Positions 3,409 to 5,285 of a stretch of 10,316 nt of DNA are shown here, in pieces; positions within the stretch are counted from its first letter, which is position 1; the number at the start of each line of letters is the position of its first letter. This DNA is from Spirochaetaceae bacterium. GTDB lineage: Bacteria > Spirochaetota > Spirochaetia > Treponematales > Breznakiellaceae. The translations under genes and the position numbers were made by a program. Under the pieces are notes generated by a model. The model saw only the letters and a program-made list of their open reading frames with translations. It did no database searches and was not told the DNA's origin. The stretch lies in contig JAIRTD010000054.1 of NCBI GenBank assembly GCA_031255115.1, forward strand, positions 1-10,316, written 5' to 3'.

Positions 3409-3436
3409 CTATTATTCCATACTTCCGCTTTGTCAA
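3409..3436 (-). promoter_or_regulatory. Candidate sigma-70 type promoter for rpoN
   Basis: On the minus strand, a perfect TTGACA (3436-3431) is followed after 16 nt by a weak -10, TAATAG (3414-3409). Transcription would begin near 3402 and give a leader of about 25 nt before the ATG at 3377. The -35 is the strong part of this call. Confidence 0.45.
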
Positions 3437-3585
3437 GAAATTTCAAGGTCCATTCGCAAAGTCGCAAACATAGTTTGTGCACCGGTTTTGTGAACAGACA
3501 CTAATTCTACTACAATAATTGCGGTCAGTCCACCTAAACTGATTTTGGGCATGCGGCCGGAGTAAAGGGTTTGCCTGAGACGGCC

Positions 3586-3690: not shown

Positions 3691-3714
3691 CGCAACGGTT
3701 GCGAAATACCGCAA
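3691..3714. promoter_or_regulatory. Candidate operator over the DUF1015 promoter
   Basis: CGCAAC-G-GTTGCG (3691-3703) is a perfect palindrome with 6-bp arms. Its right arm also pairs with CGCAA at 3710-3714 (TTGCG, 6-nt gap, CGCAA). Both overlap the candidate -35 at 3699. The position suits a repressor site, but no regulator is identified. Confidence 0.3.
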
Positions 3715-3776: not shown

Positions 3777-5285
3777 ATGAATCTGGTTGAACGGCTGGCC
3801 CGGCTGGCCATACACATTCCCGAAATACTTATCCCCCGGCAGGGTATAGCCATCGATACCTGGGCTGTAATCGCCTGTGATCAATTTACCCAGGACAGGG
3901 TCTATTGGGACCGGGTGGCCGCCGAGGCGGGTTCGGCCCCCTCCACCCTGCGTCTCATCTTTCCCGAGGTTTTTCTGGAAGACTCAGGCCGCCAGGAAAG
4001 GATAGAGGCTATACGCCGGGCCATGGAAAGCTATTTGGGGGACGTTGGCAGCTCTGTCCCCACTGGCGAAACTGGGGACAGAGCAATGGGTGTATTCGCT
4101 TCCCTTGGACAAGGCATCATGTATATTGAACGAAGCACTCCCCGCCATCCCTGCAGGAAGGGGCTGGTTCTGGCTGTGGACCTGGAATCTTACGATTGGG
4201 CCCCTGATTCCCGGACCCTGATACGGGCCACCGAAGGAACTGTGCCTGAACGTATAGCGCCGCGCATGGAAATACGCCGGGGGGCGGCCCTGGAATGTCC
4301 CCATATACTGCTTTTAATAGACGATCCCGGGGACAGAGTAATGAATATTCTCGGAGAAGCGGCAAAAAAACAGAAAAAAGCCTATCAGGGTGATTTGATG
4401 TTTAATTCCGGCTCTGTCTCCGGTTGGTTTTTGGATAAAACAGAAGATTTAATGCTGTTGGCTGATGAATTTGAACTATTGGCTGATGCTGCCCGGACGC
4501 GTTATGGCTCCTGCGGGGACAGAGCTTTTCCAGAAAGCGGATCAAATGGGGACAGAGCAAACGGGTCCGGCGGGGACAGAGCAAAGTCCGGCGGCGCTTC
4601 CCCCCTCCTCTTTGCCGTTGGAGACGGGAATCATTCCCTGGCCACTGCCAGGGCGGTCTGGGAAGAGTACAAGGCCTGCCACAAAGGTGAAAAAGGGCTG
4701 GAAAACTATCCCGGCCGTTATGCCCTGGTTGAAATAGAAAACATTTACGACCGGGGGATAGCGTTTGAGCCCATACACAGAGTTATATTCGGCGCGGGGA
4801 CAGAGCTTTTGGACAGCCTCAAAGCCCTTCCCGGTTTTACCAGCCGGGAAATACGCGGCGACAGTCCTGACGGAGACAGAGCAAGACTTTCAGAGCTTGC
4901 AAGACTTTCAGAGCTTGTAGCTGAACGGGGGACAGAGCATATCCGCTACGGTTTTGTGCAGGGGCCGCGTTGTGTGCTTATCGAAAGCACCGCGCCGGGA
5001 ATGGCCCCGGTTCCCCTGCAGCCGCTGCTGGACGCTTTTGTTGAAAAACACCCTGACTGTTCCATTGACTATATCCATGGGGCAGAATCCTGTATCCGCC
5101 TTGCCCTGGACCAGGCCCGCCCGGCCGCCGCCATACTGCTTCCTCCGGTAAAAAAGGAGGATCTCTTCGGCACAGTTGCCCGATCAGGCCCGCTTCCCCG
5201 AAAAAGTTTTTCCATGGGGGAAGCCTGGGAAAAGCGCTTTTACCTTGAATGCAGGAGGCTTTTTGCGCCTGGGACTTCCCGCTAG
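3777..5285 (+). CDS. DUF1015 family protein carrying internal DNA repeats
   Basis: A 502-aa protein of family DUF1015 (function unknown; I recall some members lying near serine-biosynthesis genes). Hallmarks present: WAVIACDQFTQD at 29-40, YWDRV at 43-47, the AVGDGNHSLATAR signature at 280-292, the IENIYDRGIAFEPIHR segment at 320-335, and LPPVKKEDLF at 455-464. The start is the ATG at 3777 with GGAGG 4 nt upstream; an in-frame ATG at 3699 would overlap the likely promoter. The protein is longer than the roughly 400-430 residues I expect. The excess lies at least partly in segments made by a repeated 11-bp word: GDR at 100-102, 185-187, 247-249, 258-260, 266-268 and 366-368; GTE at 341-343 and 385-387; SVP at 93-95. 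The core motifs remain, so the gene looks intact. It ends in a CTAG shared with the convergent NYN gene. Confidence 0.9.
   Translation: MNLVERLARLAIHIPEILIPRQGIAIDTWAVIACDQFTQDRVYWDRVAAEAGSAPSTLRLIFPEVFLEDSGRQERIEAIRRAMESYLGDVGSSVPTGETGDRAMGVFASLGQGIMYIERSTPRHPCRKGLVLAVDLESYDWAPDSRTLIRATEGTVPERIAPRMEIRRGAALECPHILLLIDDPGDRVMNILGEAAKKQKKAYQGDLMFNSGSVSGWFLDKTEDLMLLADEFELLADAARTRYGSCGDRAFPESGSNGDRANGSGGDRAKSGGASPLLFAVGDGNHSLATARAVWEEYKACHKGEKGLENYPGRYALVEIENIYDRGIAFEPIHRVIFGAGTELLDSLKALPGFTSREIRGDSPDGDRARLSELARLSELVAERGTEHIRYGFVQGPRCVLIESTAPGMAPVPLQPLLDAFVEKHPDCSIDYIHGAESCIRLALDQARPAAAILLPPVKKEDLFGTVARSGPLPRKSFSMGEAWEKRFYLECRRLFAPGTSR
4051..4084. repeat. Head-to-head repeat pair forming a 12-bp stem
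   Basis: GCTCTGTCCCCA (4051-4062) and TGGGGACAGAGC (4073-4084) are perfect inverted copies around a 10-nt loop. It is the only spot where two copies face each other closely, as in paired REP units. The stem lies within the coding sequence (residues 92-103). Confidence 0.9.
4881..4916 (+). repeat. 18-bp tandem duplication within the DUF1015 gene
   Basis: GCAAGACTTTCAGAGCTT occurs at 4881-4898 and 4899-4916, exact, encoding ARLSEL twice (residues 369-380). It begins at the tail of the repeat copy at 4872, and its own CAGAGCTT echoes the tail of the GGGGACAGAGCTTTT copies. Confidence 0.9.

Follow-up and report, generated by a model that had tools for sequence, protein, structure and literature searches.

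An 11-bp word dispersed through protein-coding genes of spirochaetes and associated with RAYT genes in relatives

The word in the DUF1015 gene and in its genome

The window, i.e., the whole stretch of 10,316 nt that was analyzed, carries a DUF1015 gene (Table 1), whose mechanical ORF begins at 3699, ahead of the ATG assigned by homology. Beside this gene, the minus strand between 5282 and 10090 encodes a NYN + OST-HTH/LOTUS protein, an XPB/RAD25-like helicase and a protein with a weak match to Helicase_C_3, below the cut-off. When up to one mismatch was allowed, the word GGGGACAGAGC was found ten times in the window, i.e., in six exact forward copies, one exact inverted copy and three one-mismatch copies. 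All ten lie within 4051..4938 and none elsewhere in the window, exactly as a preliminary description of this DNA had counted them. Its reading of the copies as GDR, GTE and, inverted, SVP was likewise accurate, with four exact forward copies encoding GDRA, two encoding GTE and the exact inverted copy encoding SVP. In 200 dinucleotide shuffles of the window, the mean number of copies was 0.18 and the largest was 2.

Table 1. The DUF1015 gene of the window with its copies of the word and its insertions
Feature	Position	Strand	Remarks
DUF1015 gene	3777..5285	+	PF06245, E 4.5e-47; start ATG 3777 by homology (orthologue match 3777-5282)
Insertion of ~15 residues	4038..4082	+	absent from G001, G003 and 11 outgroups; limits by eye
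Exact inverted copy, SVP	4051..4061	-	within insertion
Exact copy, GDRA	4074..4084	+	same insertion as 4051 copy
One-mismatch copy	4329..4339	+	length unchanged; common to G001 and G002; homologous position
One-mismatch copy	4411..4421	-	conserved residues, length unchanged, homologous position
Linker insertion with three words	4512..4590	+	G003 without it; approximate limits, by eye
Exact copy, GDRA	4515..4525	+	within linker insertion
Exact copy, GDRA	4548..4558	+	within same linker insertion as 4515
Exact copy, GDRA	4572..4582	+	within same linker insertion as 4515
Exact copy, GTEL	4796..4806	+	G003 has AGEEL, equal length; automatic rule: ambiguous
One-mismatch copy	4872..4882	+	in small insertion; G002 copy exact
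Exact copy, GTEH	4928..4938	+	common to G001/G002; adjoins G003-specific expansion; automatic rule: ambiguous

The genome of the window (G000) is a draft of 323 contigs with 1.92 Mb, 74% complete. It was analyzed within a set of 58 genomes comprising itself and members of the same genus, family and order, among them G001, G002 and the congener G003, of which G001 is also an incomplete assembly. Most of the set are metagenome-assembled genomes (MAGs), and spirochaete MAGs of this kind come from termite guts; G055 and G038 are long-contig assemblies. G000 contained 69 exact copies of GGGGACAGAGC, and the pattern read backwards was found 0 times. With up to one mismatch, 159 copies were found, as compared to 22 for the reversed control. 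Since these 22 matches are spread over 34 words, about 0.65 copies are expected by chance per 11-mer. The similar-composition word GGGGACAGACC was found four times in G000. Exact copies of GGGGACAGAGC ranged from 0 to 102 per genome, and 46 of the 58 genomes had at least one. With 69 copies against about 0.65 expected, and with a mean of 0.18 in the window shuffles, chance was rejected as their source. Selection on the peptide was rejected as well, since all six reading frames are used across the genes of G000, in agreement with the preliminary description.

The conserved unit spans 11 bp and is often followed by TT (T in 49 of 67 contexts, the next T in 37 of 67), with flanks that look random; among the aligned GGGGACAGAGC contexts, no conserved flank was found beyond 11-13 bp. 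This excluded a MITE, i.e., a unit of 70-300 bp with terminal inverted repeats and target duplication. The 67 contexts of 41 nt folded no better than random 41-mers (-3.49 vs. -3.72), and a palindromic REP was rejected on account of the missing hairpin, the start with GGGG and the lack of a GTAG-type foot. Inverted pairs of the REPIN/BIME kind were rejected for distances within 100 bp, since neighboring words up to 100 bp apart in the sets compared lay on the same strand 45 times and on opposite strands once. The element is not palindromic and is therefore neither a REP nor a MITE in the strict sense, contrary to the REP/MITE-like nature suggested at the outset.

For neighbors up to 300 bp apart, the ratio of same-strand to opposite-strand pairs was 28/1 in G000, 24/0 in a subset of G038 and 9/7 in G042. 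Arrays with a spacing of 14 to 41 bp were observed, and elsewhere 37 copies were found in 19 kb. In G000, arrays occur on contigs C320, C141, C26 and C215, with a 41-bp array unit common to C26 and C215. Contigs C26, C141, C153, C215 and C320 end no more than about 130 bp from a word, mostly inside arrays, and the draft probably loses further copies at contig ends.

Insertions and equal-length copies in genes

The DUF1015 proteins of 15 genomes (G000, G001, G002, G003 and 11 outgroups) were aligned. Five of the seven exact copies (4051, 4074, 4515, 4548 and 4572) lie in insertions absent from the congener G003 and the 11 outgroups; those at 4051 and 4074 make up a 12-bp inverted pair, 10 nt apart. 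At the site of the insertion 4038..4082, G002 has a different, shorter one. The view that this gene absorbed repeated insertions was thus borne out for these five copies and failed as an explanation of every copy, since the copy at 4796 involves no length change relative to G003 and the one at 4928 is ambiguous. The one-mismatch copy at 4411 may be a chance near-match. Several copies are common to G001 and G002, and the process was therefore probably active before the species split.

Directly after the 4872 copy, the window contains an exact 18-bp in-frame tandem duplication (4881-4916; GCAAGACTTTCAGAGCTT). The G002 contig that bears the DUF1015 orthologue (C15, L310) is rich in the variant GGGGACAGAGTAA, and GAGT-type words were found upstream at two RAYT loci of G033. 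In the DUF1015 gene of the window, a second family of words may be at work.

A Pfam scan covered 30 word-bearing ORFs of G000, of which 10 were without a family. The families found included aminotransferase, TrpRS, EF-G, MnmA, RNase H, NUDIX and M32 peptidase, and further Y-family polymerase, Dus, TrkH, CheB, semialdehyde dehydrogenase and others. By an automatic rule, the 46 G000 copies with orthologues were classified as 21 equal-length copies, 12 insertions, 11 ambiguous cases and 2 shared by all genomes compared. With 21 of 46 copies of equal length, insertion as the sole mode was excluded. In G042, 31 of 37 clustered words lie in long ORFs, including genes named by eye as PolA-like (4 words), ParC-like (6) and ParE-like (6). 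Comparison of these 31 words with five relatives yielded 12 equal-length copies, 8 insertions, 10 ambiguous cases and 1 without an orthologue. The ParE-like protein, for example, has LGTEH where four relatives have LGIEN and one has LGIEA, and in the PolA-like protein ALSP replaces four varying residues after a conserved TF-x-x-V.

Equal-length sites were less similar to their orthologues than matched windows from the same alignments, with an identity of 0.419 vs. 0.580 in G042 (11 words; a value this low in none of 5000 draws) and of 0.621 vs. 0.701 in G000 (20 words; in 2 of 5000). This lower identity could reflect the replacement of a block or the survival of words only where residues vary; under either reading, the presence of one 11-mer at so many uninserted sites demands a directed process. 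Some equal-length copies in conserved peptides, namely of CheB, the Y-family polymerase and a radical SAM protein, differ from relatives by no more than 1-2 bases; these could be due to chance or point mutation.

The word uses both strands and avoids coding sequence little to mildly. ORFs of at least 150 aa contained 44 of 52 words in stretches of G055 (ORF coverage 0.86), 31 of 37 in G042 (0.92), 34 of 44 in the G000 pieces L091-L108, which hold part of the 69 copies (0.86), and 180 of 263 at the best 80 of 223 RAYT loci (0.85).

RAYT genes of relatives and their words

Y1_Tnp genes were found in 33 of the 58 genomes, i.e., in 14 of the 16 genomes with at least eight words and in 19 of the 42 others (Fisher p 0.006), a moderate association between genomes of differing completeness in which the G000 match is an IS200-type fragment. 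A same-strand word was present no more than 450 bp upstream of the Y1 domain in 26 of 30 evaluable RAYTs, which came from genomes picked mostly for having words; for 25 of these 26, the distance was 81-166 bp. The four without an upstream word count against the reading that RAYTs write the word. None of six RAYTs from word-poor genomes had an upstream word. In the protein tree, one group of 31 rows contained all 26 word-bearing RAYTs, and seven rows without the word stood apart.

The residues of the HUH and Y---NP motifs (H59, H61, Y119, N123 and P124) are invariant in seven of seven proteins, and no helix-turn-helix was detected in six of six at E values up to 1. In six of seven fragments, which were 111-116 aa long, the REP-associated model NF047646 scored above the IS200 model NF033573, yet did not reach its cut-off of 80 bits; the remaining fragment, from G000, is IS200-type. 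For the fold predicted from an alignment of seven rows (mean pLDDT 81), the best match was 4ER8, i.e., E. coli TnpA-REP in complex with a REP hairpin, which was also the sole match in a sequence search of the PDB (E 0.0042). By its HUH and Y---NP motifs, the REP-type model and the TnpA-REP fold, the linked gene of the relatives is a RAYT, i.e., a class 2 TnpA-Y1.

The words of the relatives cluster around these genes. In G042, 42 of 47 words lie no more than 25 kb from its two RAYTs, with at most 2.1 expected, and the 19 kb around one of them hold 37 words. In G055, 60 of 82 words lie within this distance of a RAYT (at most 5.5 expected), and clustering was much weaker in G038, with 28 of 100 words among those listed (at most 7.4 expected). 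A protein scan that took a single genome from each of 84,980 species yielded 223 RAYT loci, of which the best 80 were kept; 78 are titled as spirochaetes (Spirochaetaceae, Treponema etc.) and two only as "bacterium". At these best 80 of 223 loci, 670 words were found in 1.10 Mb, as compared to 40 for the reversed control, and counts per 2 kb within 10 kb of the RAYT were 42, 74, 76, 36 and 35, with 1, 2, 5, 3 and 1 for the controls. Among those of at least 10 kb, the most frequent 10-mer was the word in 33 of 58. The pattern GGGAC[AG]GA[GC]N occurred no more than 200 bp upstream in 49 of the 76 loci with enough sequence; its absence at the other 27 counts against the reading that RAYTs write the word.

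The word varies together with its locus. Among the best 80 of 223 loci, the upstream variant coincided with the one found most often at its locus in 31 of 40 cases, several of which come from one genome and are hence dependent; shuffling gave a mean of 20.7, and none of 20000 shuffles reached 31. Three congeners have three variants at one locus, i.e., GGGGACAGAGC in G042, GGGGACAGAGG in G048 and GGGGACGGAGG in G057. The syntenic region of G057 had 0 exact copies of GGGGACAGAGC and no RAYT match in 15 kb; it is not a clean negative, since 10-mer counts revealed a variant word of its own there. A second RAYT clade is present in G038 and G043, along with numerous copies of GGGGACAGACC (115 and 34, respectively); in G046 and G055, whose RAYTs on the tree include none of this clade, the copies number 5 and 4. 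G052 and G015 have 21 and 20 copies, with no RAYT of that kind among those examined.

The own genome of the window yielded a different picture. In G000, a 74% complete draft, no RAYT was found, the only match being an IS200-type Y1 fragment at a contig edge; this fragment was rejected as the source of the word, since its 1.6-kb locus contains no GGGACAG. No RAYT was found in the incomplete G001 either. In G003 and G002, the RAYT adjoins groEL. G000 has its densest word cluster on contig C320, on the opposite side of groEL, and neither a RAYT match nor a word was found there in the 7.6 kb beyond groEL. The DUF1015 cluster was tied to a RAYT in none of the genomes examined; in G002, the DUF1015 gene and the RAYT are on separate contigs. 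The RAYT of the window's own genome has presumably been lost or was left unassembled. The proposal that a RAYT elsewhere in the genome mobilized the word is therefore supported via the relatives, where the word lies upstream of RAYTs, clusters near them and matches them in its variant, and found no counterpart in G000.

Several further features were observed at these loci. A second block, GCAAGC or ATTAAAGCAA, was noted by eye about 15-60 bp before the start in RAYT upstream regions (L276 at ~3433-3496; loci L139-L178) and is perhaps part of a RAYT end signal, or a promoter. RAYT loci without GGGGACAGAGC showed other enriched words, i.e., GTCTGACAC (18 vs. 0 in L389), ACACTAGCCT (28 in L412), GGGACAGACA (12 in L410) and GGACTGTCCC (13 in L409), and loci L430, L386 and L175 likewise; it may be that every RAYT clade uses a word of its own. 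The word-poor genomes G029 and G025 contained at least 62 and at least 28 Y1_Tnp matches, many of similar length, and these Y1 genes seem to multiply, unlike the low-copy RAYTs linked to the word.

Origin of the copies and comparison with known systems

On the sequence evidence, GGGGACAGAGC is best explained as a hairpin-less relative of REPs, and a RAYT, a transposase-like enzyme whose predicted substrate is single-stranded DNA at this word, likely wrote the copies into the DNA nearby. What the sequences of the relatives provide is the upstream position, the locality, the variant match and the two kinds of copy, in-frame insertions and equal-length ones; we infer binding, nicking, copying and selection on length. 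The RAYT would nick single-stranded DNA at the word, and the 3' end set free in this way, or else a short single strand that carries the word, would pair elsewhere nearby. Repair or template switching would then leave about 11 to 13 nt of the word with a random net change in length, of which purifying selection in genes would retain 0 or multiples of 3. Events of this kind, some of them older than the split from G001 and G002, would have produced the copies seen in the DUF1015 gene.

Among other explanations, the word might be a functional binding site of the RAYT or another protein, kept and multiplied by host selection instead of copying. parS sites, for example, cluster near parAB, and the equal-length copies, the clustering near one gene and the fixed place upstream of RAYTs are in line with such a site. 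It would be costly, however, given 37 copies in 19 kb and arrays spaced at 14 to 41 bp; insertions into RNase H, MnmA, PolA- and ParE-like genes, the displacement of a motif that is conserved across five relatives and the fast change of the word between congeners also make this explanation unlikely. That RAYTs settle or survive in regions made word-rich by another process would account for G000 and G001, which are word-rich with no RAYT found, and for the variant words of G057 with no RAYT nearby. This is quite unlikely, however, as the upstream variant follows its locus; moreover, on the tree, the RAYTs of G055 and G046 pair up as orthologues, which looks like inheritance and not like a recent arrival.

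DUS and USS accumulate by biased uptake, and a DNA-uptake or similar exchange signal would share with GGGGACAGAGC the short length, the use of both strands and the equal-length copies in conserved peptides. Such an origin is nevertheless made improbable by the clustering around RAYTs in three relatives instead of a genome-wide spread, the tandem same-strand arrays, the low copy number and the variants that differ by species at one locus. Slippage and local tandem duplication probably contribute to the arrays, i.e., those on C320, C141, C26 and C215, and the 18-bp tandem duplication is of this kind; as the only process, starting from one origin per gene, they are very improbable, since the word occurs in unrelated genes, on both strands and between random flanks, without flank homology between dispersed copies past 11-13 bp, and in equal-length copies. 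Chance, base composition, peptide selection or assembly error might apply to a few copies in conserved peptides and to the one at 4411, and most assemblies are MAGs with contigs ending in arrays. As a general explanation, they can practically be dismissed in view of the excess over chance and the use of all frames. The same pattern was found in the long-contig assemblies G055 and G038, which excluded an assembly artifact as the only cause, and individual copies are common to orthologues from other assemblies.

Writing of the word by a RAYT might be taken further. We suggest, tentatively and as a possibility about which doubt prevails, that a relative of transposases writes its 11-bp recognition word over the chromosomal surroundings of its gene, by equal-length replacement and insertion and through polA, parE and rnhA; this would amount to a cis-acting word drive with protein edits as a by-product and with the word shifting between species. 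If the copies are RAYT-written, the spread of such repeats would become directly testable. Because the repeat is short, hairpin-less, RAYT-local in the relatives and located in conserved genes, a copy can be read as insertion or equal-length replacement against its orthologue; copies readable in this way would give a base-level record of events that is beyond the reach of extragenic repeats. RAYT/word pairs for in vitro tests would also be gained, and residues of essential proteins would be open to rewriting by a process at the DNA level.

Among known systems, DUS and USS are coding-sequence words with a length of about 10 bp, and no insertion is required for them to arise. The present word is like them in these respects and differs in that it clusters near a transposase gene, forms arrays, inserts and has a low copy number. 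Tyrosine transposases with terminal repeats sharing GGGGWSAS (TIRYT/TIRtron) are described in PMC3733652. The present system resembles them in its RAYT-like Y1 gene with an adjoining GGGGACAG repeat, a repeat that is also present elsewhere; GGGGACAG fits GGGGWSAS. Many upstream copies at the present RAYTs read AGGGACAG. The present repeats differ in lying upstream, often several in one direction, with copies through genes, and among the 26 RAYTs preceded by a word, an inverted word no more than 500 bp downstream was found for only 1 (for 2 when the match was loosened), unlike the two-sided repeats of TIRYTs. According to PMC6006769, all 20 TIRYTs assigned to subclass 2.1 have a C-terminal helix-turn-helix, which was found in none of the six present RAYTs; for subclasses 2.1 and 2.3, no REP-like sequences are reported there.

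Intragenic REPs and Rickettsia palindromic elements, palindromic inserts of 20-30 residues according to PMC3733652, likewise add in-frame residues to housekeeping genes; the present unit differs in its 11-13 bp and in its many length-neutral copies. GGGGWSAS TIRYTs and intragenic REPs are already in print (PMC3733652). In a search that left subscription papers and preprints mostly outside, no literature was found on hairpin-less RAYT words in genes, their clustering around RAYTs or equal-length copies, and the matches listed for GGGGACAG and GGGACAGAGC included no bacterial repeat paper; the REP/RAYT literature matched also comprised PMC2817692 and PMC8266576.

The REP/REPIN systems (TnpA-REP, REPtron) share with the present one a dispersed short repeat that is specific to a single-copy-type Y1 transposase and located beside its gene, and the modeled fold of the present RAYT is closest to TnpA-REP. 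The present word differs by having no palindrome, direct instead of inverted neighbors, a mostly genic location and clustering around RAYTs. For P. fluorescens SBW25, 14 gene-overlapping REPs are reported among 1,067 (PMC3116915). The present word is thus not extragenic as REPs are; it is RAYT-adjacent and RAYT-specific like them, as found in the relatives and at the best 80 of 223 loci (49/76 and 31/40, respectively).
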